Virus record (IMG/VR): IMGVR_UViG_3300045993_000417
Span: 20,800 to 84,799 of that record
Strand: one strand, 5' to 3'
Length of the DNA: 64,000 nt
Source: a virus
Both the position numbers and the translations under genes were made by a program. This document shows, one piece after another, positions 1-13,769 of this stretch (its first letter is position 1; every line of letters begins with the position of its first letter). Below the pieces are notes generated by a model. The model did not search any database. It was not told the origin of the DNA and worked only from the letters and a program-made list of their open reading frames with translations.

Positions 1-1509
1 GACTCAGCGTCTTTCTTCCGGGAAGACGAGCCCATAGTTACCCTTATTGATTTAAAGAAATACACATCGGGGTTGGAGAAATTAGCCGCTGATTCTAGTA
101 TAACAGCGTACGTTGCTGAACTGAAACCGGAAGAGGGGTATTTCTACGTTCACATACTGGCCCTTGGAGCTTCTGAATTCTACGGCGCAAATCGCAACGG
201 TGATAGTTTCCCTGAGGACAGCCTTATTAAGTATCATCATACTTTTGTAACGTCCCCAGGATTTATTTTTCGAAATCATATTAACAAGGACCCCAGCATA
301 GCCATAGGTAAAGTAGTCTTTTCAACATTTAATGTTAGAATGCATAGAGTGGAAATTATAGCTGCAATTGACCGGGTTAAGGGTAAAGATATTTTGGAAA
401 GGGTGGAGGCAGGTGACTTCCCCTCCACCAGTATGGCATGCAAGACAAGTTATGACGAATGCTCTATCTGCAATAACCGAGCCCATACTAGGGCTGAGTA
501 TTGCACCCATTTACGCAACGAGTTAGGTAAGATATATCCTGACGGTAGAAAAGTTACAGCTATCAACTCCGCCCCGTTAAAGTTCATGGAACAGAGTATA
601 GTGGTTCGCCCGGCAGACGCAACGAGTTCCATACTGATGAAAGTAGCAAGTGACTCATCCTTCACTCAAGTCCAATCTTCAGCTGAGCTAGCTGAGATTG
701 AAGGTCTTGGAGACAACGTCATGGATAAACAAGCGGATCTAAGCAAGCTAGCTGATCTCATCAAAGAAATTGATGGTGGTCTAGTAGTAGACGCAGATCC
801 TGAGTTGGACAAACTTTTAGCTAAAACTAAAGACCCTAAGTTCGCTCTAATTCCAATCCTTAAGAACTTCAAGCTTAACGATGTTCTATACTCTCTTGGG
901 CACCTGGGCATTAGCCCGTCCCTAGCCTTCCTGGCAGAGTTAATAGCAGTCAAGCTAGTAGGAGACCACATGACCGGCTCTGGGGCTACTATAGCCTCTC
1001 TAGCGCATCAGGTAGACCCTTCTAAGATAGCTGTACCTAAAGAGATGTCGGACGAAGTTAACGGACCTCAATCCTCTATCCTGAAACTGTTCGCACCAGA
1101 ACTTCTTGGCAGCTCTATGCTTCCAGAGTTCGTAGAGAAGCGTGCTTTCTTGTTTGATGATGGAAGAGAACGTGACGATTTTGAAGGAAAGCATTATAAT
1201 ACCAATATAGGCTACATTGGAAATGGTCCCGAGATTGAGAAGACTCCATTTGAAATGTGGCAAGCTGCAAATGGCGGTATGAAAGAAAACGGTGGCATAG
1301 GTAAAGTACTAACTACGCTACTGGCTGTTGGTGGAGCTGCACTAGCTGCTAAGTGGTTTATAACTAGAACCATTGAACAGAAAATGAGAGAGGCTTTGCC
1401 TCACCCTGGAAATGGTGTTAAAATAGTACTAGTTAAATCTGCTTCTGATTACAAGTTAACTCATCGTTTAGCTAAGGCTGCGATGATTAAGTGTCTAAAG
1501 AAGGTGTAA
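1..1509 (+). CDS. Prohead maturation protease, 5' end outside window
   Basis: This is probably the serine-type protease that processes the prohead core and capsid protein. The frame is open from base 1, so the gene very likely begins upstream; the first in-window start-like codon is TTG at 73. Numbering from there, a conserved block contains a histidine (FRNHINKDPS, about residues 67-76) and a later serine in DFPSTSMACK (about 114-123), the His/Ser arrangement seen in herpesvirus/T4-type prohead proteases. The C-terminal half looks like an extra domain and carries several K-x-A motifs (LEKLAA, LMKVAS, LVKSAS), the same motif that is dense in the scaffold-like proteins that follow, so it may be self-processed. 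It is followed by scaffold, small head proteins and capsid gene, the usual order. The family call is by motif and context. Confidence 0.72.
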   Translation, partial: DSASFFREDEPIVTLIDLKKYTSGLEKLAADSSITAYVAELKPEEGYFYVHILALGASEFYGANRNGDSFPEDSLIKYHHTFVTSPGFIFRNHINKDPSIAIGKVVFSTFNVRMHRVEIIAAIDRVKGKDILERVEAGDFPSTSMACKTSYDECSICNNRAHTRAEYCTHLRNELGKIYPDGRKVTAINSAPLKFMEQSIVVRPADATSSILMKVASDSSFTQVQSSAELAEIEGLGDNVMDKQADLSKLADLIKEIDGGLVVDADPELDKLLAKTKDPKFALIPILKNFKLNDVLYSLGHLGISPSLAFLAELIAVKLVGDHMTGSGATIASLAHQVDPSKIAVPKEMSDEVNGPQSSILKLFAPELLGSSMLPEFVEKRAFLFDDGRERDDFEGKHYNTNIGYIGNGPEIEKTPFEMWQAANGGMKENGGIGKVLTTLLAVGGAALAAKWFITRTIEQKMREALPHPGNGVKIVLVKSASDYKLTHRLAKAAMIKCLKKV

Positions 1510-1581: not shown

Positions 1582-2772
1582 ATGAGTAAAAATGAAAACT
1601 TCACTTTAGAAGACCTTTTGGCTACAATTGAGAAGCAAGCTTCTGACGCTGAAACCGAGGGCTCTAAAGCCGATAATAAAGAAGACTCCAAGGAAGCATT
1701 GGACTCTCGTAAAAAGGACTCGGGTGAAACCGATGAAGCCGAAGCCGAAAAAGCTAAAGCTGAAAAGAAAGAAGGTCAAGAGAAGTCTGCATCTGAACAA
1801 GGCGCTGACTTAGCTAAGGAAATTCTAGAAAAAGTAGCATCTAACAATAAAGGAAATAACGAAATGAGCAAACAAGCTTCTGTAGCTGGCAAGGCTTTGG
1901 CCGATGCAATCCTGACTAAACTGGCTTCTGCTGGTGACGTCGCAACTGAAAACGGGATCACTCCTGGTACAGTTCCACAAAAGAATATCGTTGACAACGC
2001 TGAGATGGATGCACAGGCAACTGCAAAAATCCAATCACTTCCAGGTACCGACGGTGCTGGTAATGGCGGTAGCGTTAATCAAATCTTTGATGCAATCGTT
2101 GCTGATGCAATGGGCGAAGGCGCAACTGCTTACGACCAAACACAATCTGCTGGCGCTTCTGCTGGTGAAGGTGCTGCTATGGATCAAGGCGCAACTGCAA
2201 ATGGTCACGCTGATGAGTCTCAAGAGAAGATGGCTGCTGCTATCACATTGTTTGAGAATGGTCTGGACTTTGATACAGCAGTTGACTTGGTTAAAGAAGC
2301 TGCTGAAGCAATTGAAGCTGAAGAGTTTGATATGGCTAAACAAGCCGCTGTTAGCGAATTGATAGGTCAAGGTTTTGACTTTGATAGCGCAGTTGAGTTG
2401 GTTAAAGAAGCTGTTGCAAATCCATCTGAGCGCGTCTCTCATCCCAATAGTACTATACGCGGTAAGGTAGAACAGGGTGCTTATCAGGCTAAGCAAAAAG
2501 GTAAACGTTTCGGAGCTTCCGCTAAAAGTGAGGCTGCCAATCTGAAGGGCGCACTAGGCGGTTTGAAGAATTCCCCACGTACGGCTATTCAATCTATCGC
2601 AGGTAATCGTATTGCCCAAGCTGCTGCAGCTGCTGCTGCTATCGGTGGTGGTGCGTATGCTCTTACTCGTGAAAAGAAAGCTGCTTTCGAAGCATTGGTT
2701 GATGCTGGTGTTGACTTCGAAAAGGCTGCTGAGTTGGTTGCTGCTAAGTCTCAAGAACTGTACGGTCTGTAA
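1582..2772 (+). CDS. Prohead scaffold / internal core protein
   Basis: A 396-residue protein, strongly charged and alanine-rich, with an acidic Lys/Glu-rich N-terminal third and helical repeats. It is the likely internal scaffold around which the capsid assembles, cleaved during maturation. At least eleven K-x-A motifs are spread through it (IEKQAS, LEKVAS, MSKQAS, LTKLAS, LVKEAA, FEKAAE and others), matching those in the neighbouring protease and in the capsid protein N-terminus. Two segments are imperfect repeats: ENGLDFDTAVDLVKEA, then GQGFDFDSAVELVKEA, with a third variant DAGVDFEKAAELVAA near the C-terminus. A Gly/Ala-rich hydrophobic stretch lies near residue 350. It sits 72 bases after the protease and ends before a terminator. 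Assignment rests on position and composition. Confidence 0.68.
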   Translation: MSKNENFTLEDLLATIEKQASDAETEGSKADNKEDSKEALDSRKKDSGETDEAEAEKAKAEKKEGQEKSASEQGADLAKEILEKVASNNKGNNEMSKQASVAGKALADAILTKLASAGDVATENGITPGTVPQKNIVDNAEMDAQATAKIQSLPGTDGAGNGGSVNQIFDAIVADAMGEGATAYDQTQSAGASAGEGAAMDQGATANGHADESQEKMAAAITLFENGLDFDTAVDLVKEAAEAIEAEEFDMAKQAAVSELIGQGFDFDSAVELVKEAVANPSERVSHPNSTIRGKVEQGAYQAKQKGKRFGASAKSEAANLKGALGGLKNSPRTAIQSIAGNRIAQAAAAAAAIGGGAYALTREKKAAFEALVDAGVDFEKAAELVAAKSQELYGL

Positions 2773-2845: not shown

Positions 2846-3697
2846 ATGAACAAATACCTAACCAAACTAGCTACCCTCTCAGCCGATGCTAAAAAAGAGA
2901 TCCAACAAACAGCTATCATAGCTGCTACTGGATTAGGCGCAGGAATAGGCGGTGACATGTTATCTAAGACTAAGGCTATCTCTAGCTGGAAAGCTCCGAG
3001 CTGGCTTAAGGCTGGTGTTACCGTTGGGGCGTTAGGTTTAGTAGGTGACGTAGCTGCTGTTAAGGTTAATAGACATATAGAAAAGAGTGCAGGGATGAAT
3101 AAGTATTTGGAAAAAGTGGCATTGACGTTAGATGGGCATTCGTTTGAACCGGTGGGGAACTACACCACCTCCGTTAAAGATATAAACGATGCTCCGGCTA
3201 CCGTACCTAAAAAGAAGTTTGGACATCAGAAGTTAGAACCTAATATTAATCCAGGAGATACTTTCGATTCAAAGACTCTAAACTACCTAGGGAGTCCTGA
3301 TATAGCTCATGCTAAAGATATCACTCCAGTACCTCTGTCCGCTAAAATACACAATAACAAAGCCAAGATTCTACTATCTGCTGCAGGGCTAGCCGGGGCA
3401 GCTGGATTGTATGCTTTACATAATAAAAGGAAAAAAGAAGCGATGAACAAATATCTAGAGAAAGCGGCCTCTATGCAACTCCTATTTAATGGAGTTAGGC
3501 GTGGGGCACAAAGGCTTGGCGGGCAATTAAAGACATTGGGACAAGACTTTAGTACTGCCCCTAAAACGATGGCAGGTATGAAGAGTATGGCTCCAAGTAT
3601 CAAACCTATACTTCAGAACCGTGCGGTACAGGTGGGTGCAGGTGCTACTGCGTTAGGAGTTGGTGCACTGTCCATGAGAAAAAAGAATAACCAATAA
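2846..3697 (+). CDS. Triple-module small head protein with three MNKYL tags
   Basis: A 283-residue protein of three consecutive modules, each starting with a version of the same tag: MNKYLTKLA at residue 1, MNKYLEKVA near 85 and MNKYLEKAA near 200. The first and third modules, and the tail of the second, have a Gly/Ala-rich hydrophobic stretch, which in modules two and three is followed by a basic end (NKRKKE, MRKKNNQ). The same tag starts separate genes at 4307, 9354 and 12988. It may be a fusion of once-separate tagged proteins, or a precursor cut at each tag by the prohead protease. An AGGA lies about a dozen bases before the third tag's ATG, so internal initiation is possible. No catalytic motif was recognised. 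Confidence 0.7.
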   Translation: MNKYLTKLATLSADAKKEIQQTAIIAATGLGAGIGGDMLSKTKAISSWKAPSWLKAGVTVGALGLVGDVAAVKVNRHIEKSAGMNKYLEKVALTLDGHSFEPVGNYTTSVKDINDAPATVPKKKFGHQKLEPNINPGDTFDSKTLNYLGSPDIAHAKDITPVPLSAKIHNNKAKILLSAAGLAGAAGLYALHNKRKKEAMNKYLEKAASMQLLFNGVRRGAQRLGGQLKTLGQDFSTAPKTMAGMKSMAPSIKPILQNRAVQVGAGATALGVGALSMRKKNNQ

Positions 3698-3707
3698 GGA
3701 TATTAAA

Positions 3708-4304
3708 ATGTCACTATCACAAGAATTACGTGCATACGCAGAAACCTTGCACACTCCAGAAGTTTCGGAGACAGAGGCTGCGGTTGAACTTTTGAAACAA
3801 GCGGGTCTTTCTGAAGACGTGGCTCGTGCAGAAGTTCTACAAATGGAAATGGAAAAAGAGGCTACCGAGCACCTAGTCATGTCCGGTATCGACATCGACA
3901 AGGCTGTCAACATGGTTAAGGCTGCTAACATCAATGTTAAGAACCTGACTAAGGTGTCTCTTGTTAAGGAAGCATCCGAAGTCACTGCTAGTCCAGAAGC
4001 TGAGTTACTGATTAAGGTAGCTGAGTACGTGGAAGAGTTGGAGTCTGAGAACGCTAACCTTAAGAACATGGTTAAAGTCGCTGAAGCTAGTGCACCAGAA
4101 AAAGAAATCAAACTCCCTCAGTCTATGGAGAAGGTTGCTAAGTCTGGCATGCTGACTAAGGAAGACTTGATTGAGCTACAGAGCGTTAGCGCTACTGTAC
4201 TGAATAAGGTTGCATCGGCTCTAGAGCCTGCATGGGAAATGGGTAAAGCTGCTGGGGTTGCAAGACCTAAGACTGATCCTATCCTTGAATTTTGTGTGGC
4301 TTAA
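3708..4304 (+). CDS. K-x-A-rich head core protein
   Basis: A 198-residue acidic, mostly helical protein preceded by a good ribosome site (AAGGAT). Nine K-x-A motifs are regularly spaced through it (LLKQAG, MEKEAT, MVKAAN, LVKEAS, LIKVAE, MVKVAE, MEKVAK, LNKVAS, MGKAAG). The short segment YVEELESENANLKNMVK near residue 107 looks like a coiled coil. Composition and motif density resemble the scaffold at 1582, so it is probably a second prohead core or internal head protein processed by the prohead protease. No enzyme signature is visible. Its stop is two bases before the next gene, consistent with translational coupling. Confidence 0.65.
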   Translation: MSLSQELRAYAETLHTPEVSETEAAVELLKQAGLSEDVARAEVLQMEMEKEATEHLVMSGIDIDKAVNMVKAANINVKNLTKVSLVKEASEVTASPEAELLIKVAEYVEELESENANLKNMVKVAEASAPEKEIKLPQSMEKVAKSGMLTKEDLIELQSVSATVLNKVASALEPAWEMGKAAGVARPKTDPILEFCVA

Positions 4305-4306
4305 TT

Positions 4307-5185
4307 ATGACTAACCTCTACTTAGAAAAGATTGCGGCTTCCATGTCTGAAGATATGCAAGAGCCTTGGACCATCCTGGGACAGAAAGAGGTAATGCTAC
4401 GTCACGGATATGATGTACCTTATAATGAACTTGGTAACGTAAATGCTCAGACAGCTAATACTAACCTTTTTAGGCAGTTGAAGCACCGAGGTATCGGAGC
4501 TCTAATAGGTGCTGCTGCTGGAGGTATTATGGGCGGTATACTACAGGGATCACAGGGAGCTTCTATTGGAGTAGCTGGTGGGGCTATGGCTGGAGCTATA
4601 GGCGGGATTGTACACGATAGTAAGTACATGAAAGAAGACCACGCTGAACTAATTCGTAGGAACATAGATTCAGGGGCGTGGGATAAATATCATATTGGAG
4701 AAAAACAAGCCTCATTCGACAATCCTTACCTAGAGAAGATTGCAGCTAATAAAATGAAGCAGTACATGATCGACACTGGTCAAATTCATAGTCATCAGTT
4801 TTATGGTCCTAAGGGAACAAAAGTAAATGCTCCTAGTAACCAGTCTATCAACGCTATGTATGCTTCAACTGCGCCTACGTCTACATACAATGCGGGTGGT
4901 AGGACAACTACGACTAAGCCTGGTAGTAAAGGTATTTTAGGAATTGGCAAGACTCCTGCTGTAACTACCTCTGTAGAAAATACCGCCACTAGAGTAACAG
5001 GAGATTCATTGGCTGGTGGAGTGAAAAGCAGGATGGTGCCAAAGACAGGTGTTAAGGGACTCCTAGGTAAGGCCGTAGGGTTGATGAAAAGAAATCCATT
5101 AGCTACTGGAGCTGTTGCATTAGGTGCTGGTATGTTAGCCGGTAGGTCTAGTAAAGGCAGTGGCGATCAGTATCAATACGCTTAA
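4307..5185 (+). CDS. Tagged head-associated protein with glycine-zipper segment
   Basis: The protein begins MTNLYLEKIAAS, a variant of the MNKYLEKIA tag; this ATG, two bases after the previous stop, is preferred over an upstream in-frame TTG at 4292. Residues about 60-105 form a Gly/Ala-rich hydrophobic hairpin (glycine-zipper type, possibly two membrane-spanning helices). A second tag, NPYLEKIAA, occurs near residue 142, followed by a polar Thr/Gly-rich region and a final hydrophobic stretch (ATGAVALGAGMLAG). The two-tag layout mirrors the three-tag gene at 2846. Proteins with such segments that are packaged could act on the host membrane during DNA entry, but that is inference. A strong terminator follows. 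Confidence 0.65.
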   Translation: MTNLYLEKIAASMSEDMQEPWTILGQKEVMLRHGYDVPYNELGNVNAQTANTNLFRQLKHRGIGALIGAAAGGIMGGILQGSQGASIGVAGGAMAGAIGGIVHDSKYMKEDHAELIRRNIDSGAWDKYHIGEKQASFDNPYLEKIAANKMKQYMIDTGQIHSHQFYGPKGTKVNAPSNQSINAMYASTAPTSTYNAGGRTTTTKPGSKGILGIGKTPAVTTSVENTATRVTGDSLAGGVKSRMVPKTGVKGLLGKAVGLMKRNPLATGAVALGAGMLAGRSSKGSGDQYQYA

Positions 5186-5210
5186 GCTTTAAGAACTACG
5201 TTTCAAACTA

Positions 5211-5241
5211 AAAAAATCCCGGAGTGATTACCGGGATTTTT
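5211..5241. terminator. Bidirectional terminator between convergent genes
   Basis: AAAAAATCCCGG and CCGGGATTTTTT flank a short loop, giving a stem with A and T tracts on both sides. It separates the plus-strand head genes from the minus-strand gene ending at 5244. Confidence 0.88.
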
Positions 5242-5243
5242 TA

Positions 5244-5717
5244 TTACTTACATTTAGACCAAGCCGTGCGTTGCTCCCTATCAAAACTAGAAGCCCCTAT
5301 CATTCTATACGCGGCGTTATCCCTAGTGTTACGTTTCCTAGCGTATGCCTCTGAAGTACTCCACTGCCTGTTATCCCTTACCCGGTTTGTTTTACTCCAT
5401 ACAGACATAGCATATTCTGGACTATTACCCTCTAGAATAGCTAACCCTACTGGCCTGAAGTTTACTGTTAACCACGTTACACAATCATAGCTAGACTTGA
5501 AGGGTCCTATTGACGGTATATCAAACATTACCTTTTTAGTGTCCTGTTCGGTCCAGCTAACCCCCATAGTGACCTGCAAGTAGGCGTGTACTGAGAGTAC
5601 GGCCCTAATCATACTTACGCTACGGTTAGACTTCATGGCGTCAATACAAAGCTTTATTAGTGTCACTCTGAATACATTACGGACGTCGGCCTGTAGTGGT
5701 GTTAATTTTACTTTCAT
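5244..5717 (-). CDS. Hypothetical protein, minus-strand insert in head region
   Basis: A 157-residue basic protein of unknown function, not recognised as any family. Support for a real gene: AGGAGA seven to eight bases before the ATG, an extended -10 promoter box about 40 bases upstream and a bidirectional terminator immediately after. It is the only minus-strand gene among the head genes, transcribed against its neighbours, and its promoter type is shared with the other minus-strand accessory genes. That layout is typical of an independently expressed early or moron-type gene inserted between late operons. Confidence 0.6.
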   Translation of the reverse strand: MKVKLTPLQADVRNVFRVTLIKLCIDAMKSNRSVSMIRAVLSVHAYLQVTMGVSWTEQDTKKVMFDIPSIGPFKSSYDCVTWLTVNFRPVGLAILEGNSPEYAMSVWSKTNRVRDNRQWSTSEAYARKRNTRDNAAYRMIGASSFDREQRTAWSKCK

Positions 5718-5752
5718 GATTTAATCTCCTGTTGTGAGTTTATTACACTTAA

Positions 5753-5761
5753 CTTATACCA
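5753..5761 (-). promoter_or_regulatory. Extended -10 promoter for the gene ending at 5717
   Basis: On the minus strand the sequence reads TGGTATAAGT, an extended -10 box with no clear -35. The same box precedes the minus-strand genes at 12015, 20789, 27964 and 30166. Confidence 0.6.
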
Positions 5762-5896
5762 TTTTTCACTACATCTATTTAATTCTGAGTTAAACTAATT
5801 TCATAGAGCTATATGTTCTACAGGTTTGGGCAGTAATGTCCTTGATTGATCTAATAATTAGTTCGGTCTAAACATTTAACTAAAAGGAAATAAACC

Positions 5897-6337
5897 ATGA
5901 AAATGGAAAGAACGGCAGAAGTCATTCGTGGCTGGCCATATGACGGTTCTCTTAACCGTGCGGAGCCAATTACGGCTGCTGCAACTCTGGTTAATGGTGA
6001 CTGGGTTGTAAAAGGTGCAGACGGTACTGTTAACGTTGGTTCAGTTACATTCGCTAACGGTAAAGCTGGTTTGGTAGTTGTTGGTAATGGTGATTCTGGT
6101 TCTGCATTGAACTCTGGCAAAGCTGAAGTATTGTGGGGTAACTTTATCGCTAAGGTATCTAACTTTACTGCTGGCGCTTATGTTCCTGGTGCTCCAGTTA
6201 CTGTTACAGCAGGTAAGATTGCATTGGCAACTCTGAGCACTGGCACAACCAACGGTAGCATCGTTGTAGGCCACGTATTGGATGTTGTTGCAGTTAGTGC
6301 AACTAATACTGCTCATGTTGTTATCGCAGTATATTAA
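5897..6337 (+). CDS. Head decoration-like protein
   Basis: A 146-residue small beta-rich protein, high in Gly, Val, Ala and Thr and low in charge, directly upstream of the major capsid gene. In many phages this place is taken by a capsid-stabilising (decoration) protein, and the repeated alternation of small and hydrophobic residues fits a compact beta fold. It has a strong ribosome site (AAAGGAAATAAACC before ATG) as expected for a highly expressed structural protein. The function is inferred from position, size and composition; no diagnostic motif was found. Confidence 0.55.
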   Translation: MKMERTAEVIRGWPYDGSLNRAEPITAAATLVNGDWVVKGADGTVNVGSVTFANGKAGLVVVGNGDSGSALNSGKAEVLWGNFIAKVSNFTAGAYVPGAPVTVTAGKIALATLSTGTTNGSIVVGHVLDVVAVSATNTAHVVIAVY

Positions 6338-6349
6338 TAGGGGATAAAC

Positions 6350-7243
6350 ATGAGTAATTACACAACCGAAACAATCAATACCCAATTCATCAATCAGTCT
6401 TTCTTGGACAAGATTGACCAAGGTATGGAAAAAGAAGCCGGCGCAGCAATGTCCGCATTCGTGCGTCAAAAACTGCGTGAAGATGGCTTTACACGTAAGA
6501 TCCTAACTCCAGTTTCGATCACTGCTTCCGAGCTAGATCGTCAACTGAGCGAAGAGCCACAAGTAATCGTAGAGAAAGAGCCAGACAGCGTTGCTGCAAA
6601 CTTGCCCTTCTTGTCTCGTGCTGAGATTCGCTACTTTACCGGTTCTCGTTATGCAGTAACTTTCCAGAAGATCACTTCTGCTGAGTTCAAGAAGTCTAAG
6701 TTCGAGTTGGCTACATACCGTACCGACATCCGCACTATCCTTCAAGAAAACTCGGTTAAGGATCTGCAAGAGCAAGAAGACAAAAACTTCTACAACAACT
6801 GCTTGGCAGTGGCTACAGCTAACAGCAACGTTCACGCCATCGCTGGTGGTTTCAACGTAGCTAACCTGAACGCTGGTATCAAGTTCCTGTTGGAGAAGAA
6901 ACTTCCTGTTGGTTGTATCCTGATGACTCAAAGCATGTATGCTGATCTGTTGGCTCAACCAGCTACTCAAATCGGTTCTGCAGCAGCTTCTGAGCTGTTC
7001 CGCGGCCAAGCTAGTCTTGACAATTTTTTTGGATACAAAATTATTACGACTAACAAAACTGACATCGTACCGACAAACCAAGCTGTCGTGTTTGCTCCGC
7101 AAGAGTATACCGGCCAGTTCTATTCCTTGCAGGAACCTCAAGTTTTCCTCAAGACAGAAGCCGATATGATCCAGTTCCAGACGTACGAAGCTATCGGTGC
7201 AGGCCTCGGAAATACCTCAGCAGTGCATTTTCTTAATTTCTAA
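6350..7243 (+). CDS. Major capsid protein
   Basis: A 297-residue protein that probably forms the icosahedral shell (HK97-type fold). It lies 12 bases after the decoration-like gene and before a strong terminator. The body has the expected order: a charged helical N-terminal arm, a central region (about residues 60-150) suggestive of the E-loop and spine helix, and a C-terminal domain including PVGCILMTQSMYADLL and FGYKIITTNKTD. The N-terminus contains GMEKEAGAAM, a single K-x-A motif after about 30 residues; by analogy with the scaffold this may be the maturation cleavage point. The length is short for a large phage capsid protein but acceptable. Codon choice (many GCT, GTT, AAG, CGT) suggests high expression. 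Confidence 0.8.
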   Translation: MSNYTTETINTQFINQSFLDKIDQGMEKEAGAAMSAFVRQKLREDGFTRKILTPVSITASELDRQLSEEPQVIVEKEPDSVAANLPFLSRAEIRYFTGSRYAVTFQKITSAEFKKSKFELATYRTDIRTILQENSVKDLQEQEDKNFYNNCLAVATANSNVHAIAGGFNVANLNAGIKFLLEKKLPVGCILMTQSMYADLLAQPATQIGSAAASELFRGQASLDNFFGYKIITTNKTDIVPTNQAVVFAPQEYTGQFYSLQEPQVFLKTEADMIQFQTYEAIGAGLGNTSAVHFLNF

Positions 7244-7270
7244 GAGGTTTTTAGAAAGTAACACTAAAAA

Positions 7271-7294
7271 GCCTGGAGAAATCCGGGCTTTTTT
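7271..7294 (+). terminator. Terminator after major capsid gene
   Basis: GCCTGGA and TCCGGGC pair around a GAAA tetraloop, followed by six T residues and preceded by A residues, so it could also act on the other strand. Confidence 0.88.
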
Positions 7295-7336
7295 ACGTCC
7301 TCAAAATTGTAGTAGTTAAAAGTGTCCTAGTTATGT

Positions 7337-7342
7337 TAAAAT
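7337..7342 (+). promoter_or_regulatory. Leaderless-type -10 box of gene 7349
   Basis: TAAAAT ends six bases before the ATG at 7349, so transcription should begin at or next to the start codon. No Shine-Dalgarno sequence or clear -35 is visible. Confidence 0.6.
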
Positions 7343-7348
7343 AGGATT

Positions 7349-8530
7349 ATGAAACATACCAACAAATTATCGCAAGAAGAAGTAATACGTCGCATGACTT
7401 TGAAGAACCCTCAGTTTGATTTTTCAGAGTTTGTGTACACAAATAGTACTACCAAAAGTACTGTCATGTGTAGTACTCACGGTAGATTCCAACAGAATTA
7501 TAAAAGGCTGACTAACGGTATAGGGTGTGCCAAATGTGGTGGCGTAGCTAAAAAAGATCCAATATCTTATGTAGAGGAAATCACACGTAAGTTTGGCACA
7601 TTCTGTGACTACTCTAGGGTAGTATATCTAGGGGCCCGTTCAACGGTGGAGGTAGTATGCCCTATACACGGTGTATTTAGTGTAATAGCATGTAACTACC
7701 TTAATCTATATAAACACCCGTGTCCTAAGTGTGGTATTGATAATAGGGTCAAGAATCAGTTTGATTCTGCGGAGGATTTTATAAGGAAGGCGGTTTCCGT
7801 GCACGGATCTTTATATGACTACTCTAAGGTGGTATACGTAGGTTCTAAGATGCCTGTGGAAATAGTCTGTAAAACTCATGGGAGTTTCTTAAAGTCTCCC
7901 AATAAACACATAAGTTATAAAGGTGGATGTCAGAGGTGTTCTGAGGGTAACCGTATCTCTAAAGGTGAATCGAGTCTTCTTAATAAAGTATCGGAGCTGG
8001 GATTAGCTATACTGAAGAACAATAGGGGCATTCTACCCGGACGTAAAGAGTTGGATATGTACTTCCCTGAACTAAAAACAGGGATAGAGTATAACGGAAT
8101 ACTATGGCACTCGGAATATAAGGGGTCCAAGTTTAACCTATTGGACAAGACAAAACTGGGAGAAGCCGTAGGGGTTAAAGTATTACATATATTCGAAGAC
8201 GAGTGGGAGAACGATCCGGATAGGGTAATTAATATAACCAAAGCCGTATTAGGAACTGAGATAAACGATAAACAATTAGTAAAAGAGTGCTCCACCTTAT
8301 TTGGCGAACTAACATATTTAGATAGAAGGTACCCACTGCTAGATAAATTTCTACGCCTAGGATACGAGGTAATAGAGGTAGTAGATCCTAAACCCTGGTT
8401 TAGTAATGGATATAAAAATAGAGTACCCTACACTGAAGACATAAAATCAAGTAACCCCCGTGGAGTAGTAGTCTGGGACTGTGGAGGTTACCTATTAAAA
8501 CCACCGGCCAAAATTATGGGTGTAACATAA
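7349..8530 (+). CDS. Zinc-repeat homing-type endonuclease
   Basis: A 393-residue protein with three tandem zinc-binding repeats over roughly residues 1-205. Each has aromatic-Asp-Tyr/Phe-Ser, then a C-x2-HG element (CSTHGRF, CPIHGVF, CKTHGSF) and a closing C-x2-C (CAKC, CPKC, CQRC). The C-terminal part (about 235-310) has KELDMYFPELKTGIEYNG, an LWHS element and VLHIFEDEW, resembling the Vsr/EDxHD restriction-fold nucleases fused to such repeats in phage homing endonucleases. It probably cuts DNA and spreads as a free-standing mobile gene. It sits just after the capsid terminator, has its own promoter, and its codon use is more AT-rich than the capsid gene. Confidence 0.72.
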   Translation: MKHTNKLSQEEVIRRMTLKNPQFDFSEFVYTNSTTKSTVMCSTHGRFQQNYKRLTNGIGCAKCGGVAKKDPISYVEEITRKFGTFCDYSRVVYLGARSTVEVVCPIHGVFSVIACNYLNLYKHPCPKCGIDNRVKNQFDSAEDFIRKAVSVHGSLYDYSKVVYVGSKMPVEIVCKTHGSFLKSPNKHISYKGGCQRCSEGNRISKGESSLLNKVSELGLAILKNNRGILPGRKELDMYFPELKTGIEYNGILWHSEYKGSKFNLLDKTKLGEAVGVKVLHIFEDEWENDPDRVINITKAVLGTEINDKQLVKECSTLFGELTYLDRRYPLLDKFLRLGYEVIEVVDPKPWFSNGYKNRVPYTEDIKSSNPRGVVVWDCGGYLLKPPAKIMGVT

Positions 8531-8536
8531 ACTAAG

Positions 8537-8700
8537 TCCGGCTCCCGCCGGAATACTTTTCACGATTTGGGATTGTTGGTACTACAAAAACTTCCAACAG
8601 ATTCAATTAACATCTTGATTCTCCCAAATCTTTATTGTTATTAAGATGTAACCCATCGCTGTTTTGATGGATATGATCTCCCTACTACAATATACTTATA
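8537..8700 (-). ncRNA. Candidate structured small RNA or leader-peptide transcript
   Basis: A 200-base gap between genes. On the minus strand an extended -10 box (TGGTATAAG, 8695-8703) should start a transcript near 8688 running to the hairpin TCCGGC-TCCC-GCCGGA at 8537-8552. The predicted RNA of about 150 nt has a hairpin (CCATC/GATGG, 8653-8670), an outer stem of nine pairs (GATTTGGGA at 8564-8572 with TCCCAAATC at 8622-8630) and an inner stem (GTTGG/CCAAC, 8575-8598). It also contains a possible 17-codon ORF (8613 down to 8560, MLIESVGSFCSTNNPKS) with GGGAG seven bases upstream, so a leader peptide is an alternative. Confidence 0.4.
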
Positions 8701-8721
8701 CCAAAAAAGCGGTTCTTAATG

Positions 8722-8727
8722 TAAAAT
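8722..8727 (+). promoter_or_regulatory. Leaderless-type -10 box of gene 8734
   Basis: TAAAAT ends six bases before the ATG at 8734. This spacing selects 8734 over the upstream in-frame ATG at 8728 and makes the product start with MNKYL, like its relatives. Confidence 0.6.
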
Positions 8728-8733
8728 ATGGTT

Positions 8734-9357
8734 ATGAATAAATATCTGATATCCATAGAGAAGGTGGCGATGAATGCCCTTAAGTCCAGGGTATTAGCTA
8801 AAGGTGTAGGGGTTATCGCACAGCCTGGGTCACAGTGGAAACGGGCTATAAGGGATTCCAAAAATTTTAAGTCAGTAGAAGATTTTCAGAATACCTGGAA
8901 ACATAAAGTACCAAACACTTTTAAGGTGGAGGGTACTGCTACTGCCATAACCAGGACTGGTGAAAAAATCCCTGGAGCGTATAATAAATATACGAAACTA
9001 ACTGATTCTCTAAAGTCTATAGAAAATAAAGGGTTAGGTAAAGTAACGTTTCTTAATGGGGAAGCAGCCTCCATAAAAACTAAAGGCTCTAATTTACAGA
9101 TACACCTAAAAAGTCATAATAATAGGAATATACTAGAGGCTGTTGGAAGCACAGTTAGCCCTACTGCAAGTGATACTACTCGTGGTAAAGGTTTATTTAA
9201 AGGACTATGGCCTCACATATCCAAAGAGTTAAGGAAGCGTGGGATAACCCATCTAGAGATGGAGCCTCAATCCCCCGTCTGGCATAAGAACTACAAACTT
9301 GAAAAAATACCAGAAAAAGACGTAGATTACTATAAACATAGAATACCAACTAAATGA
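8734..9357 (+). CDS. Tagged head protein with GNAT acetyltransferase-like domain
   Basis: The 207-residue product starts MNKYLISIEKVAMNA, an extended form of the MNKYLEKIA tag that also includes a K-x-A site. The C-terminal half resembles a GNAT N-acetyltransferase: an acetyl-CoA-binding motif RGKGLFKGLW at about residues 150-159, then a helix, a strand THLEMEP and a final WHKNYKL typical of the last GNAT strand/helix. A likely role is acetylation of a host or phage protein, and the tag suggests packaging in the head, as T4 packages the ADP-ribosyltransferase Alt with its own short propeptide. That comparison is inference. The start is chosen from the promoter spacing and tag. The stop overlaps the next start (ATGA). 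Confidence 0.55.
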   Translation: MNKYLISIEKVAMNALKSRVLAKGVGVIAQPGSQWKRAIRDSKNFKSVEDFQNTWKHKVPNTFKVEGTATAITRTGEKIPGAYNKYTKLTDSLKSIENKGLGKVTFLNGEAASIKTKGSNLQIHLKSHNNRNILEAVGSTVSPTASDTTRGKGLFKGLWPHISKELRKRGITHLEMEPQSPVWHKNYKLEKIPEKDVDYYKHRIPTK

Positions 9358-9707
9358 ATAAATACTTAGAAAAGATAGCATCCAGGTCAGACGGAGTTAT
9401 AAACTCCATCTTCGGATTCGGAGATAGACTGATAGGCCACTCTGCCGGCCGTGCTAAGACCATCCACAACTCCTTGAAGGACGCAGCTCATCTGGGTAGC
9501 GGTATCCCAGCCTCTACCATGCGCAAGGCTAAGGAGCTATCTGATGCTGCCTCTCTGGCTTCTCGTAACACTCGTATCCGTACTGCTCTAGCAGTGGGCG
9601 GTGGTGTAACTGCTGGGTATCTCGGTATCCACAAGTACCAGCAACATAAAGATGAGAAGATTATGCAGAAGATCTTATCTAACGCACAAAACAATCAAGT
9701 ATACTAA
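9354..9707 (+). CDS. Small tagged head protein with hydrophobic helix
   Basis: A 117-residue basic protein starting with the canonical tag MNKYLEKIASRSD. The middle is polar and basic, and a Gly/Ala/Val-rich stretch at about residues 90-105 could cross a membrane, followed by a charged end. It overlaps the previous gene by four bases (ATGA), so the two are translationally coupled. It resembles the individual modules of the gene at 2846. No enzyme motif was recognised. The best guess is an internal head protein delivered with the DNA. Confidence 0.62.
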   Translation: MNKYLEKIASRSDGVINSIFGFGDRLIGHSAGRAKTIHNSLKDAAHLGSGIPASTMRKAKELSDAASLASRNTRIRTALAVGGGVTAGYLGIHKYQQHKDEKIMQKILSNAQNNQVY

Positions 9708-9715
9708 AATACGTA

Positions 9716-9744
9716 TTGACTAAATTAGAGAGACGTACTAAAAT
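9716..9744 (+). promoter_or_regulatory. Sigma70-like promoter for gene 9777
   Basis: TTGACT (9716-9721) and TAAAAT (9739-9744) are separated by 17 bases. The transcript should start near 9751, leaving a short leader with AAAGGAAA before the ATG at 9777. Confidence 0.65.
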
Positions 9745-9776
9745 CACGTTCTCTTACATAACTTAAAGGAAACAAA

Positions 9777-10211
9777 ATGTACATTCAAAACACCCTAAAC
9801 CATACTCTAGTTCTGAAAGCCGGATACTTGAAGTTGGCTGCAGGCGCAACAAACGTCAATCCCCTTACAGAGGATGACTACAAGGACACTACTATTGCTG
9901 ACGCAATCTCTCGTGGTTGGGCTAAAAAAGTAACTGAGGCTATCGCTGCTGCTGAAGTGGCACCGGTTGCAGTTACTGTAGCTAGCTCTAAGGGAGGTTT
10001 GACTCTTGAAGAACTAAAGGCTGAACAGGCTGCTAAAGTAGAGAAGCCAACTGCTTTCACTACTGAGCTTGGTCTTAGCGATGGTATCCCTCAGGGCGGT
10101 GCAGTAGGTTCTACAATCGGAGTGCCTATTGAGACTTACGTAACTGAGCCTGTAGTAGCTCCAGTAGAAGAAGTTAAAGAAACAAAAGCCTCTAAGGCTA
10201 AAAGTAAATAA
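9777..10211 (+). CDS. Hypothetical structural protein
   Basis: A 144-residue protein rich in Ala, Val, Glu and Lys. The N-terminal 70 residues (MYIQNTLNHTLVLKAGYLKL) look like a small folded domain; the rest is acidic and proline-containing and ends in a Lys/Ala-rich tail (KETKASKAKSK), probably flexible. It has its own sigma70-like promoter, a strong ribosome site and a terminator, so it is expressed as a single gene, which fits an abundant virion component. Position among head and neck genes supports this. It was not recognised as a known family. Confidence 0.5.
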   Translation: MYIQNTLNHTLVLKAGYLKLAAGATNVNPLTEDDYKDTTIADAISRGWAKKVTEAIAAAEVAPVAVTVASSKGGLTLEELKAEQAAKVEKPTAFTTELGLSDGIPQGGAVGSTIGVPIETYVTEPVVAPVEEVKETKASKAKSK

Positions 10212-10241
10212 AGTATCCCTACATATAAATTGGAATACTTT

Positions 10242-10266
10242 CCGGCCTTAGGGCCGGTTTTTTATT
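10242..10266 (+). terminator. Terminator after gene 9777
   Basis: CCGGCC and GGCCGG pair around a short loop, followed by a run of six T residues. Confidence 0.88.
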
Positions 10267-10270
10267 GTGC

Positions 10271-10276
10271 TAAACT
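10271..10276 (+). promoter_or_regulatory. Leaderless-type -10 box of gene 10283
   Basis: TAAACT ends six bases before the ATG at 10283, directly after the preceding terminator. No ribosome site is visible. Confidence 0.55.
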
Positions 10277-10282
10277 CTAGTC

Positions 10283-10726
10283 ATGGCTACTATACAAATT
10301 CTAACTGTTGATGAAGTACGTGAGTACTTAGGTGATTACGCTCAAAACAACCGCCTGATTGAAGGTGAGGAGTTTTCAGATACCAGAGTTTCGCTCTGCA
10401 TGGGACTGGCAGTAGATGAATATAATACCAACCCACCTTTCACAGTGTATAGTACGGCGGATTTCCCCTCCAAGTCTATATTGCTCTGGGGAACGTTGTG
10501 GAAGATGTTTGAAGGTAAGGCTGCAGAGTTTGCACGAAACACTCTGTCATACAGTGACGGCGGTGTACAGATACCAATTGAGGAAAAGGCGGAGTTGTAT
10601 AAGACTCTAGCTAACGGTTTCCATCAGAACTTCAACGACCAAATGAGAATCCTAAAAACACACGTTAACATGGAATCAGGCTGGGGTGACGTTCGTGGAG
10701 ATGCGAGCCTTTTCCCTATTTGGTAA
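10283..10726 (+). CDS. Head-tail connector-like protein
   Basis: A 147-residue protein between head genes and tail genes. The start, TVDEVREYLGDYAQNNRLIEGEEFSD, and helices with conserved aromatic residues resemble small adaptor or head-completion proteins that bind under the portal, which share a helical-bundle fold. A size near 150 residues and the location upstream of neck and tail genes fit. There is no catalytic motif. It is flanked by terminators on both sides and has a leaderless-type promoter, so it is a one-gene unit. The role is inferred from context and general sequence character. Confidence 0.45.
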   Translation: MATIQILTVDEVREYLGDYAQNNRLIEGEEFSDTRVSLCMGLAVDEYNTNPPFTVYSTADFPSKSILLWGTLWKMFEGKAAEFARNTLSYSDGGVQIPIEEKAELYKTLANGFHQNFNDQMRILKTHVNMESGWGDVRGDASLFPIW

Positions 10727-10730
10727 TCTA

Positions 10731-10759
10731 AAAAAAGCCCAGGTTATTCTGGGCTTTTT
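10731..10759. terminator. Bidirectional terminator
   Basis: AAAAAAGCCCAG and CTGGGCTTTTT form a stem with tracts on both sides, serving the plus-strand gene ending at 10726 and the minus-strand gene ending at 10761. Confidence 0.88.
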
Positions 10760-10760
10760 A

Positions 10761-11105
10761 TCAAACACGCAGAGCGGTAATATATACCCCTATTGCCCTG
10801 TAAAACATCCCATCCTTATTATTGGTGTCCTGTAGTACCAACACGGTTACTTCCGAGTGGCTGGTAAAATCAGGTTCTTTAAGTGCGGGCTTTATCAAAG
10901 ACATTTCCTGGTCATGTAATTCTTTCTCTGAATAGGCTTTTATCATTATAAAGGGAACATAGGCTAGCCTGTGTTTGTAATCCCAGTAATCCCCCCTACC
11001 ACGGATACACCTAGTTAGGCCCTCTATTTCTATGACCTTGATAGGACCACCTTCTAGTTGTTTATCTAACTCACTAACAGATATAGGTTTATACGTTATG
11101 TTCAT
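10761..11105 (-). CDS. Hypothetical protein in phosphoesterase operon
   Basis: A 114-residue protein of unknown family. Its start overlaps the end of the phosphoesterase gene by 17 bases in another frame, so the two are translationally coupled and share the promoter near 12045. The protein has a mixed alpha/beta look, with a central WDYKHRLAYVPFIMIKAY segment and a C-terminal strand-rich region (SHSEVTVLVLQDTN). A bidirectional terminator follows at once. It may assist or regulate the phosphoesterase, but nothing in the sequence shows how. Confidence 0.6.
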   Translation of the reverse strand: MNITYKPISVSELDKQLEGGPIKVIEIEGLTRCIRGRGDYWDYKHRLAYVPFIMIKAYSEKELHDQEMSLIKPALKEPDFTSHSEVTVLVLQDTNNKDGMFYRAIGVYITALRV

Positions 11106-12015
11106 TCTCTTCCTTAGTTGAAGTTATGATGAGCGTCTCATGTTCTACCAACCCTCTGGCCTCATTCATTTCACCAGCGTAACCTACGCAGTTATTGATT
11201 AGTACACACTCCCCGAACACGGTGGTATCCTGGTAATGAGTATGTCCATAGAACCAGTACCTGATGTTTGGGTTGTCCATAATCAAGTCACTCAAGTCTG
11301 AGGCGTAATAACAGTTAGAAGTGTCCCCTGCGTACCTAGGATCACACAGACTGAACATCGGTAAGTGATGTGTTATTACTATCACTTTCTTGTTAGGGTT
11401 TTGTCTAGCTATAAAGCGTATGTATTCCTTGTGCCTTTTATGCACATTAACCCAGCGCTCTGACGTAAATCTATCCCACCTGCCCTCAGGACCGGTATCG
11501 TATGATATCTTACCGTCGTAAGCCATAACTCTATTTAGGTTCATCATAGAGAAGGGATCATTCTTATTCATGTCTGTCCAAAGAGTACAGCCTACAAACA
11601 AGAAGTCACCATCCACGTAAGTGTCGCAGTCAAGTACTTTGACGTTGTGTAACCCCCTGTTGGCTAGAAGTTCGTTACACTTCTCACCACCCCTTCTGAT
11701 AGTTAAGCTACCAGAGTTAATCGGCCAGAAATCATGGTTTCCAAGCACTATAAGCACCTGTTTAAACCTACATGCAACCTTCTCGATCCATGTCCTAGAA
11801 TCTACCGTGAATGGTCTAGGAGTATCCTTATCTATTAGAATCGTTTCCCTAGAGAAGTCCTCCCATTCGATAAACCTGGTGCCGGTCCATAAGTCCCCTG
11901 CCAGTATGAGGATAGTCTCAGCGTCGTCTGGTAGAACCGGTGGATACCAAAGTTTACCTAGCTTATAGTGATCTAAATGAATATCAGAGTATTCACGTAT
12001 TTTTAACTGTTGCAT
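11089..12015 (-). CDS. Calcineurin-like metallophosphoesterase
   Basis: A 308-residue enzyme with the full motif set of the calcineurin-like phosphoesterase superfamily: DIHLD (Asp11, His13), a GD pair in LAGDLW (near residue 41), GNHDFWP, a histidine pair in ITHHLP and the final GHTH. These bind two metal ions and hydrolyse phosphoesters; the substrate is not evident and could be nucleotides, nucleic acid or phosphoprotein. A ribosome site (AAAGGAT) precedes the ATG and an extended -10 promoter lies about 30 bases upstream. It is a minus-strand accessory unit between connector and neck genes. The superfamily is secure; the role in infection is unknown. Confidence 0.85.
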   Translation of the reverse strand: MQQLKIREYSDIHLDHYKLGKLWYPPVLPDDAETILILAGDLWTGTRFIEWEDFSRETILIDKDTPRPFTVDSRTWIEKVACRFKQVLIVLGNHDFWPINSGSLTIRRGGEKCNELLANRGLHNVKVLDCDTYVDGDFLFVGCTLWTDMNKNDPFSMMNLNRVMAYDGKISYDTGPEGRWDRFTSERWVNVHKRHKEYIRFIARQNPNKKVIVITHHLPMFSLCDPRYAGDTSNCYYASDLSDLIMDNPNIRYWFYGHTHYQDTTVFGECVLINNCVGYAGEMNEARGLVEHETLIITSTKEENEHNV

Positions 12016-12042
12016 AATGATCCTTTAGTTGTTTGTACATTA

Positions 12043-12051
12043 CTTATACCA
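12043..12051 (-). promoter_or_regulatory. Extended -10 promoter for phosphoesterase operon
   Basis: The minus strand reads TTGGTATAAGTAATG, the same TGGTATAAG box found upstream of the other minus-strand units, with a leader of about 20 bases containing AAAGGAT. Confidence 0.62.
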
Positions 12052-12068
12052 AATATTCTACCATACTT

Positions 12069-12074
12069 TAAAAT
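12069..12074 (+). promoter_or_regulatory. Leaderless-type -10 box of gene 12081
   Basis: TAAAAT ends six bases before the ATG at 12081; the segment TAAAATACAGTT is almost identical to the one before the tape-measure gene at 33876. Confidence 0.62.
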
Positions 12075-12080
12075 ACAGTT

Positions 12081-12977
12081 ATGTCATTAAACGTCTCTAT
12101 CAATGTAGGGTTCCTAGTTCAAACCCATAATATGGGTAGCTCAACCGTGCCTACGTTGATTAGTAATGGGATATACCAGTCCGGAGCCATATCGGTAACT
12201 ATATATCCTAGATGGTATAAACACGTATCTGTTGAATGGACAGTGCCTTCTAACTGGGGTAATTGTGTATTCAACGTGTATACTAGTCAGACGGAGGGTG
12301 GTCCTTGGGAGTTGATTAACCCTATCCCTATTACTGGAACGTTCTTAACAGAAGCCGTTTCAAAAGAGTATTCTAAATTCTCTAAGGGTTTTTACGTAGT
12401 AGAAGCATTACTACTGGATAAGAATCTGCATAAGGTAAGGTCAGCTTCTTCGACTTGGAATACGTATCAATCTAACTGGGTTGCATTGCGCTCAAACGAG
12501 ATACAGCGTAGGCAGTACATACTTCTAGCTCAATTTACTGGGGTTAAGTCTTATCTGTTTAGACGTAGAGACTACGGTAAGCGCTGTACGAACTGTTGGG
12601 ATCCTAAGACTGAAAAGGTTATTAAGGATCATTGCACAGTGTGTTTTGGTACTAGTTTCGAAGGTGGTTACTTTGATGCTGTACCGTTCTATGTTCAGTA
12701 TGAACCTACCCCTAATACAGATCAGCAGGTGTATTATGGAACTATGGAAAATAACCAAATCGGCGGTAGGAGTATATCTATACCAGAGGTTAGGTTAAAT
12801 GATATAATAATCAGAGCAGGGGATTGGAACGCATATTTAGTAGACAGAATGACTAACACTGAACTCATGTCTAATTCAGTAAGTCAAATAATGGTATTAA
12901 CACAATTAGGTAAAGACAGCGTCGAGTACAATTTAATGACAAAGAACCTACCAGATTTCCCACAACAATATATATAA
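12081..12977 (+). CDS. Neck/tail structural protein with zinc ribbon
   Basis: A 298-residue protein. Residues about 30-135 look like a fibronectin/Ig-type beta domain (HVSVEWTVPSNWGNCVFNVY; SKGFYVVEALL). Residues about 165-195 hold a zinc ribbon: CTNC, twelve residues, then CTVC. The last third is beta-rich. The position before the tail-terminator-like gene and sheath suggests a neck or tail-completion component. Four cysteines in a cytoplasmically assembled virion protein favour structural zinc rather than disulfides. The exact role is not established. It starts a late operon with the tagged small protein at 12988. Confidence 0.5.
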   Translation: MSLNVSINVGFLVQTHNMGSSTVPTLISNGIYQSGAISVTIYPRWYKHVSVEWTVPSNWGNCVFNVYTSQTEGGPWELINPIPITGTFLTEAVSKEYSKFSKGFYVVEALLLDKNLHKVRSASSTWNTYQSNWVALRSNEIQRRQYILLAQFTGVKSYLFRRRDYGKRCTNCWDPKTEKVIKDHCTVCFGTSFEGGYFDAVPFYVQYEPTPNTDQQVYYGTMENNQIGGRSISIPEVRLNDIIIRAGDWNAYLVDRMTNTELMSNSVSQIMVLTQLGKDSVEYNLMTKNLPDFPQQYI

Positions 12978-12987
12978 AGGATAGAAC

Positions 12988-13182
12988 ATGAGCAACAAGT
13001 ACTTAGAAAAGATCGCAATGACTGCTGGAGTTGGTAACCTTATTAAGGGCATCAAGACTACTAGCAAGCTGGAGTCGGACATGCTTAAAGGCAAGGCCCG
13101 TAATATTATTCAGAAACAGGTAGACAGGCACATCCCTACCGGCGGTCTAAGCACTTTGAAGCAATACCCAGTACGGTACTAA
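12988..13182 (+). CDS. Small MSNKYLEKIA-tagged protein
   Basis: A 64-residue basic protein starting MSNKYLEKIAMTAG, the same tag as the head proteins at 2846, 4307 and 9354, here lying between neck and tail genes. It is preceded by AAGGAT and followed two bases later by the next start. The remainder is lysine/arginine-rich with no membrane stretch, so it might bind DNA. If the tag is a capsid-targeting propeptide, this would be an internal head protein located outside the head cluster. Confidence 0.6.
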   Translation: MSNKYLEKIAMTAGVGNLIKGIKTTSKLESDMLKGKARNIIQKQVDRHIPTGGLSTLKQYPVRY

Positions 13183-13184
13183 TA

Positions 13185-13769
13185 ATGTCGTCGTTCTCTC
13201 CTCTACTAGTGTCTAAGCTGGTAATATTACCCTTGAGGTATTTTTTCAGTAACTACGCCAAGGCGTATGACTTAGTATGGGACGAGGATGAAAAGATTCG
13301 CACAATAGAGGTTGGCCACATGAATGACTACCATCAAATAGCCATTCAGAAGAACCCGCGTGTTTTAATATCCAGAGGGGACTACCAGATAAACAAGGTG
13401 GGCATCACTGATAACCTTGCTGAAGCCTTACCCTCTCAACTTCACGGTAGTGACGACCGCGTTAATATGGTGCTTATTTCTGGTAATGCCCAGATAATCA
13501 TAGAGGCCAGGCAACAAGGAACTTGCGAAATTTTAGCAGATATGGTTTCTCACTTTATTACCTGGTCAAGGCCTTTTCTCTGTGATACACAGGGTTTTAA
13601 GGAGTTCGGATTACCAATGGTAGTTTCAGACTGCACCCCTGATCAGGAGGATAAGGAGAAATTTAAGGTAGTGATCTCTATACCCTTTATGATGGAAGAG
13701 AAATGGACTGTAAGACAAGAAGCGCTCTCTTTGAAAAGTTTCTTTGTATCTCTATCAAAGCAGCCATGA
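13185..13769 (+). CDS. Tail terminator-like / neck protein
   Basis: A 194-residue mixed alpha/beta protein immediately upstream of the sheath gene. Tail-terminator and tail-completion proteins are usually encoded just before sheath and tube and have this size and a pattern of alternating strands (VNMVLISGNAQIIIEARQ, KFKVVISIPFMM). No strict signature can be seen, so this is a positional call. It is coupled to the preceding gene (TAATAATG). The sheath promoter begins shortly after its stop, so the sheath can be expressed separately. Confidence 0.45.
   Translation: MSSFSPLLVSKLVILPLRYFFSNYAKAYDLVWDEDEKIRTIEVGHMNDYHQIAIQKNPRVLISRGDYQINKVGITDNLAEALPSQLHGSDDRVNMVLISGNAQIIIEARQQGTCEILADMVSHFITWSRPFLCDTQGFKEFGLPMVVSDCTPDQEDKEKFKVVISIPFMMEEKWTVRQEALSLKSFFVSLSKQP

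Follow-up and report, generated by a model that had tools for sequence, protein, structure and literature searches.

A nine-residue tag with a predicted head-protease site, a probable capsid-cargo leader in a group of large phages

Results and Discussion

Tagged genes in the window

The window analyzed in this study is a 64,000-nucleotide stretch of DNA, bases 20800-84799 of an 84.8-kb virus record (IMGVR_UViG_3300045993_000417; G000). It contains genes for a prohead protease, a scaffold-like protein and a major capsid protein (MCP), together with five genes for small proteins that begin with the nine-residue peptide MNKYLEKIA or a variant of it, referred to here as the tag (Table 1). An earlier note on this DNA had reported eight copies of the tag, five of them at gene starts, on bodies that differ from one another. 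All copies were confirmed by translation, and the five bodies are indeed unrelated except for a common composition. The variant leader at 8734 retains the core IEKVA and has a two-residue insertion; an alternative ATG is possible at 8728. No significant Pfam match was obtained for the product of this gene.

The remaining three copies are internal. Those of the first tagged gene, at 3095 (MNKYLEKVA) and 3443 (MNKYLEKAA), each have a K-x-A site ahead (HIEKSA/GMNKYLEKVA and RKKEA/MNKYLEKAA; here and below the slash marks the predicted cut). A separate 116-residue gene in another genome (L073/G014) matches module 1 of this protein alone. The internal tag of the second gene, at 4721, is NPYLEKIA without Met and is preceded by EKQA (GEKQA/SFDNPYLEKIA). 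A 393-residue, Cys-rich open reading frame (ORF; 13 Cys) at 7349-8530, between the MCP gene and tagged genes, resembles a homing-type endonuclease by eye and is likely a mobile insertion.

Table 1. Features of the window and of related sequences. Coordinates outside the window carry a locus label. h, hydrophobic residue; pI, isoelectric point; MS, mass spectrometry of Salmonella phage Arash virions; LigD-PE, LigD-type 3'-phosphoesterase.
Feature	Coordinates	Strand	Remarks
Prohead protease	1..1509 (full ORF begins 15 nt upstream of window)	+	T4 gp21-like fold (good but not final assignment)
LEKLA, predicted autocleavage site	73..87	+	Protease N-terminus
Scaffold-like acidic protein	1582..2772	+	8 h-x-K-x-A sites vs 1.35 expected; Arash orthologue gp223 in virion MS
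Tagged gene 1	2846..3697	+	283 residues, pI 10.1, no Cys; starts MNKYLTKLA; three-module small polyprotein
Head protein	3708..4304	+	9 h-x-K-x-A sites vs 0.69 expected; Arash gp225 in virion MS
Tagged gene 2	4307..5185	+	292 residues, leader MTNLYLEKIA, Gly-rich membrane-like segment, pI 9.6, no Cys
MCP	6350..7243	+	phrog_2522; distant relative of Gp27 major capsid protein, PDB 6WKK
MEKEA, predicted maturation site	6425..6439	+	MCP residues 26-30; single site in MCP
Tagged gene 3	8734..9357	+	207 residues, variant leader MNKYLISIEKVA, pI 10.1, no Cys
Tagged gene 4	9354..9707	+	117 residues, MNKYLEKIA, pI 10.1, no Cys
Tagged gene 5	12988..13182	+	64 residues, MSNKYLEKIA, pI 10.1, no Cys
Head/inner-head protein	22997..23884	+	11 h-x-K-x-A sites vs 1.75 expected; Arash orthologue gp242 in virion MS
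Tagged genes upstream of the window, G000 (L001/L002)	6805-8523, 10308, 17153, 19983, 20168 (= L002:168)	- (6805-8523)
EncFtn-like/rubrerythrin-like ferritin domain	L001:6805-8523 (residues 4-57); L109:4824-5039; L099:14870-15088		Cargo, alone or fused to helicase/LigD-PE
LigD-PE domain	L113:11106-11807; L115:8140-10044; L111:916-2826; L104:12578-13348		Tag-joined to helicase/ferritin-like

Distribution of the tag

The earlier note had proposed a search of the whole genome for further tagged starts. At least five more tagged genes were found upstream of the window in the same record, its count having been low because the window begins mid-record. The product of L001:6805-8523 is a 572-residue SNF2-type helicase with an N-terminal ferritin-like domain, and the leader at L001:10308 is divergent (MNESDFLKKLA). 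A search of the record for N-terminal tags with the consensus peptide gave nothing at E<0.001, the query being too short. Two other readings were abandoned: L001:17153 as a Zn-protease (HRHELNEA does not match the HExxH motif), and the products of 8734 and L001:10308 as GNAT-like by eye (no significant Pfam match).

Beyond this record, a degenerate KYLxKxA DNA pattern gave 119 matches in 19 related IMG/VR records; the reversed pattern gave 0. The exact MNKYLEKIA pattern was found in 52 IMG/VR stretches vs 1 match in 257 Gb of bacterial and archaeal genomes. The 123 distinct tagged proteins of the 19 records represent 45 unrelated body families, and the tag is modular throughout the clade. All KYLxKxA matches in seven records of 131-193 kb are found no more than about 23 kb from the MCP gene. 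None of the papers in the collection searched contains MNKYLEKIA.

Tags lie mostly at gene starts within one genome region, as would be expected of a recombination relic or a translation-start effect, that is, a common 5' gene end with no role for the peptide. We regard this as extremely improbable and have rejected it on codon diversity and internal tags. The 77 distinct NKYLEKIA loci comprise 68 different 24-mers, with codons mixed at every degenerate position and synonymous conservation absent; internal tags occur without a start codon, and K7 and A9 are conserved clade-wide. Codon use is near-random, and selection has therefore acted on the peptide and not on the DNA, as the earlier note had concluded from fewer copies.

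Prohead protease and the motif shared with head proteins

The protease matches the head maturation protease family phrog_18299 (E=4e-10). With an AlphaFold2 model (mean predicted local distance difference test score, pLDDT, 57; core about 77), the top three Foldseek matches in the PDB were all T4 gp21 chains (5JBL; probability 0.97-0.99), and the next match reached 0.23. The gp21-like fold is rated a good but not final assignment because the E-values are modest (0.009). Catalysis may involve H93 and S144 (window numbering), both of which are invariant. A PDB sequence search with the protease profile returned non-specific matches only.

The motif h-x-K-x-A was counted in all ORFs of five genomes and compared with shuffles. 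Significant enrichment was detected in 5-7 ORFs per genome only, and these are largely the same orthologues: a 615-635-residue protein, gp220-like and gp221-like proteins, the protease, the scaffold-like protein, and gp225-like and gp242-like proteins. In most of the genomes, the remaining ORFs had counts near expectation (observed vs expected 37 vs 31, 85 vs 73, 63 vs 74 and 77 vs 70); G003 showed a modest excess (105 vs 79). The MCP residues K28-E29-A30 are invariant in every homologue covering the region, including those of Arash and Vibrio phage D69. At the N-terminus of the protease, K and A of K27-x-A29 are invariant in 17 homologues, and the site is present in Arash and D69 too. For Arash, the predicted cut forms would give the peptides GAAMSAFVR (MCP) and AAAEIDDFVK (protease); the uncut tryptic forms are EAGAAMSAFVR and QAAAAEIDDFVK.

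The consensus of 210 head sites is [LMIF]-[EVT]-K-x-A/[SAG], with Ser 4.3-fold enriched at P1'. The tags match this core, which in silico is restricted to head proteins and cargo. Among the 45 tags compared, position 9 is Ala in all, while position 10 is not conserved; the tags have additional conserved positions at N (43/45), K/R (40/45), Y (43/45) and Ile8 (37/45). The N-K-Y half and Ile8 thus appear to be specific to tags, as would be expected of a targeting element. The leader as a whole contains the core of the sites in the MCP, protease and scaffold-like protein, where we infer cutting.

The conserved upstream half and the clade-wide uniformity of the label would also suit a docking or targeting peptide that binds scaffold or portal and is retained, its likeness to the MCP and protease sites being that of a common core-binding peptide. 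Such a peptide without proteolysis is very unlikely. Scaffold-like proteins carry multiple copies of K-x-A followed by Ser, Ala or Gly, and the motif does not vary at the propeptide borders of the MCP and protease, a pattern like that of protease sites in T4 (PMC9026906). Internal tags are flanked by doubled K-x-A sites.

Internal tags and fused proteins

The tag also serves as an internal junction in fused proteins, which corrects the earlier description of it as a leader. Ferritin (EncFtn) and helicase are joined by KKYLLKIA in G000, LigD-PE and helicase by GNKYLEKAA in G013 and by two tags in G005, and LigD-PE and ferritin (EncFtn) by KNKYLKKIA in G010. Separate tagged genes occur in G007, G008 (helicase and ferritin-like protein) and G012 (ferritin-like protein alone). 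In several fusions the tag has no start codon ahead of it, which rules out a start-site relic. A second K-x-A was found within 12 residues upstream of 24 of the 35 internal tag-like sites, compared with 6.5% in the control. The simplest reading is that fused polyproteins would be cut on both sides of the tag.

Cargo families and composition

Pfam searches of tagged and tag-fused proteins identified SNF2/DEAH helicases in 10 of 72 scanned members (E to 3e-22) and LigD 3'-phosphoesterase domains (E to 2e-9); a match to ATP-dependent DNA ligase (1e-4) was below the cut-off. An EncFtn-like ferritin (PF22277, E=1e-11, 44.9 bits vs a 27-bit cut-off) and Gly-zipper proteins (4e-11) were also found among the tagged cargo. 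A family with an LYHGT motif is a putative ADP-ribosyltransferase (ART), with matches to PARP (3e-4) and Tpt1 (1e-3) that are both below the Pfam cut-offs; the assignment stays tentative because fold prediction failed (mean pLDDT 45). The HELGHAKD motif alone makes another family a candidate metalloprotease; Pfam gave no significant match for it. Separate tagged ATP-ligase genes were observed near LigD-PE genes in G007, G008 and G013.

The tagged bodies share an unusual composition. They contain 2 Cys in 6231 residues vs a background of 1.24%, and 96% of them are Cys-free vs 22% of length-matched proteins (maximum 44% in 1000 draws). Their median pI is 10.0 vs 7.5. Gly-zipper membrane segments in some tagged proteins could point to sorting of the products to another compartment, such as a phage nucleus, membrane or tail. 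We find this hardly credible: the core motif is common to head-maturation proteins, the tags cluster around head genes, and orthologous cargo is present in virions.

Several observations were made on genes next to or related to the cargo. In L001, two pieces of a multisubunit RNA polymerase large subunit (3856-5010 and 11768-13597) lie about 6.8 kb apart with the tagged helicase in between; the RNA polymerase pieces gp206 and gp216 of Arash are similarly separated. A homologue of the helicase in Pseudanabaena phage PA-SR01 (L143:11587-13383) is encoded beside a capsid gene and has 598 residues, no Cys and a pI of 9.5. Its leader differs, and RRxFL motifs are present twice, at residues 3 and 62. 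No parallel repeated tag was seen in PA-SR01, the RRxFL motif being found in the helicase ORF only within the 50 kb scanned.

Virion proteins of phage Arash

The published virion proteome of Salmonella phage Arash lists 116 of 252 proteins (PMC10585845). All seven Arash ORFs enriched in h-x-K-x-A (gp4, 218, 220, 222, 223, 225 and 242) are among them. Arash gp217 shares about 38-41% identity with the tagged SNF2 helicase, and gp96 is a homologue of the LYHGT family; gp217 and gp96 were detected in virions with 38 and 15 unique peptides, respectively (PMC10585845). Both proteins are Cys-free and basic. A few Arash virion proteins start with the bare motif, including gp100 (MEKQA/S) and the RNA polymerase gp206 (MPKSA/S). 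The gp206 protein is the most abundant RNA polymerase subunit in Arash virions, and its D69 counterpart (OZ195729 143288-147871) starts MPKKA/S; N-terminal processing of virion RNA polymerases of the gp206 type is possible. At Arash OQ632216 54867-58971, the abundant, basic and Cys-free virion proteins gp95, gp96, gp97 and gp100 are encoded among tRNA genes. Five h-x-K-x-A sites were found in gp97. This region is possibly a cargo polyprotein locus.

Three findings would fit a tag that is a cleavage site only, removing a start peptide or separating fused domains, while basic charge or core binding of the bodies determines packaging: orthologues of the helicase and of the putative ART are present untagged in Arash virions, the tag is found at internal junctions, and strong composition signatures are common to the bodies. 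We consider this unlikely. It does not explain the conservation of N-K-Y and Ile8 over 45 unrelated families, which head-protein cleavage sites do not need, nor does it account for a cut nine residues from the N-terminus in most tagged proteins.

Proposed function of the tag

Based on these results, the tag is probably a T4-like bipartite capsid-cargo leader with a different cleavage rule, Ala and not Glu being at P1. The earlier proposal of a capsid-targeting propeptide gains support from the motif shared with the propeptide borders of the MCP and protease, the gp21-like fold of the protease, proximity to the MCP gene, the basic and Cys-poor bodies, and two families with virion-proven Arash orthologues. 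The label carries the motif at which the head protease is predicted to cut; it therefore most likely loads proteins into the head, is cut off there, and its cargo is delivered with the DNA. Binding to the core of the prohead or to the protease is the most likely role of the first half (N-K/R-Y) and Ile8, which would draw the attached protein into the assembling head. The second half, L-E-K-I-A, would be the substrate of the prohead protease, cut after Ala, usually before Ser, Ala or Gly. Inside the prohead, all tagged proteins would be cut by the protease at the motif that it would also use in the MCP, the scaffold and its own chain; fused genes, which keep the tag at the junction, would yield polyproteins cut into units. 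The freed basic, Cys-poor cargo may then be packed with DNA and delivered at infection. It would include the SNF2-type helicase, ATP-dependent DNA ligase, LigD-type 3'-phosphoesterase (in fusions), ferritin-like protein, putative ART, candidate metalloprotease, Gly-zipper membrane proteins and tiny basic proteins.

A number of points weigh against this interpretation. The evidence for cleavage is indirect. Overall, confidence in the protease model is low (mean pLDDT 57, Foldseek E 0.009). Untagged head-module proteins of G001 are likewise Cys-poor (0.3%), and lying in a structural operon could account for some of the composition seen in the cargo. Six of the 35 internal sites belong to one head-protein family and are no true tags, and the rows of that comparison are not phylogenetically independent. 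LigD-PE domains upstream of an internal tag are themselves without an N-terminal tag. Arash gp217 and gp96 are present in the virion though they have no tag; the tag is therefore not universally needed for helicase and ART cargoes. It seems to be particular to the IMG/VR clade, and Arash would rely on other signals. The Arash authors have warned that some enzymes detected by MS may be carry-over (PMC10585845). The MS coverage column of that study seems unreliable (100% with 2 peptides is implausible) and was left unused.

In a broader form of the proposal, for and against which the chances appear evenly balanced, the tag is a portable delivery code: any protein carrying the nine residues, N-terminally or internally, would be loaded into the head, freed by an Ala-specific gp21-type protease and injected. 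A DNA-end handling kit (LigD-type 3'-phosphoesterase, ATP ligase and SNF2 translocase), a ferritin-like protein and host-modifying enzymes would then make up the cargo, with mini-polyproteins resolved in the capsid. If so, one short peptide pattern would predict from DNA the injected proteome of a large uncultured phage group, and 45 protein families, many of unknown function, would become candidate early-infection effectors. Capsids would then also appear to carry DNA-repair enzymes and a ferritin-like protein, and phage-head polyproteins would be shown to be cleavable at tag junctions that are reused. A second targeting system with a protease specificity unlike that of T4 would allow orthogonal loading of proteins into phage heads. 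The Cys-poor, basic signature would be a second sequence-only test for in-virion cargo.

Comparison with known systems

The MCPs of Arash and of Vibrio phages D69, D148 and D181 are related to that of the tag clade, and in Arash and D69 the protease and site-rich head proteins are related as well. Unlike the tag clade, these phages have no array of N-terminal YLxKxA tags, only a few short M-x-K-x-A starts. Encapsulins with EncFtn cargo (PMC5012862) similarly have a ferritin-like protein with an EncFtn domain, apparently destined for an HK97-fold shell. In the tag clade, however, the label is an N-terminal phage tag and the shell is a DNA-filled phage head, with the MCP encoded beside protease and scaffold-like genes; no encapsulin shell with a cargo-loading peptide was found there.

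Polyvalent proteins (PMC5512222) are injected effectors with SNF2, ART and metallopeptidase domains; in the tag clade, SNF2 is firm, ART tentative and metallopeptidase assigned by motif only. Polyvalent proteins are single large multidomain chains, whereas the tag clade has small tagged units or fusions of two to three domains with junction tags. In the Dar system of phage P1 (PMC9024508), the SNF2-type helicase protein DarB is packaged in the head via an N-terminal signal. That signal has more than 9 and fewer than 30 residues, with no consensus among Dar proteins, whereas in the tag clade one uniform nine-residue tag is used for many proteins. Phages phiKZ and SPN3US (gp175/gp245; PMC5694885, PMC10052503) are likewise large, with a virion RNA polymerase and a gp21-type protease for which a short motif marks the cuts in the MCP, in many inner-head proteins and in the protease itself. 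They differ in cutting after Glu (S/T/A-x-E or A-x-E) and in having mostly long propeptides of 111-254 residues, and no uniform nine-residue tag has been described for them.

The earlier note had drawn a parallel with T4, whose capsid-targeting sequence (CTS) is found on the internal proteins IPI-III and Alt and is processed by gp21 (PMC9026906). The likeness holds for a short N-terminal leader, containing a protease motif, on unrelated basic internal head proteins, for Tyr at position 4 and for a gp21-fold protease. In the T4 CTS, positions 4 and 7 direct targeting and positions 8 and 10 processing (PMC9026906); the two halves of the tag resemble this separation. The T4 cargo includes an ADP-ribosyltransferase (Alt), and the tag clade has a putative one. 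The cleavage rule does not carry over: T4 cuts at L/I-x-E with Glu at P1, whereas the motif of the tag clade is h-x-K-x-A with Ala at the predicted P1. No match to T4 internal proteins appeared among the tagged cargo. Because Glu at P1 is absent and the cargo has no recognizable homology to T4 internal proteins, the tag system was not classified as a T4 CTS. With 45 families, several tagged genes per genome and tags at internal junctions too, it would represent a CTS-like system that is new relative to T4 in its cleavage rule, in its larger number of cargo families and in its junctional use.

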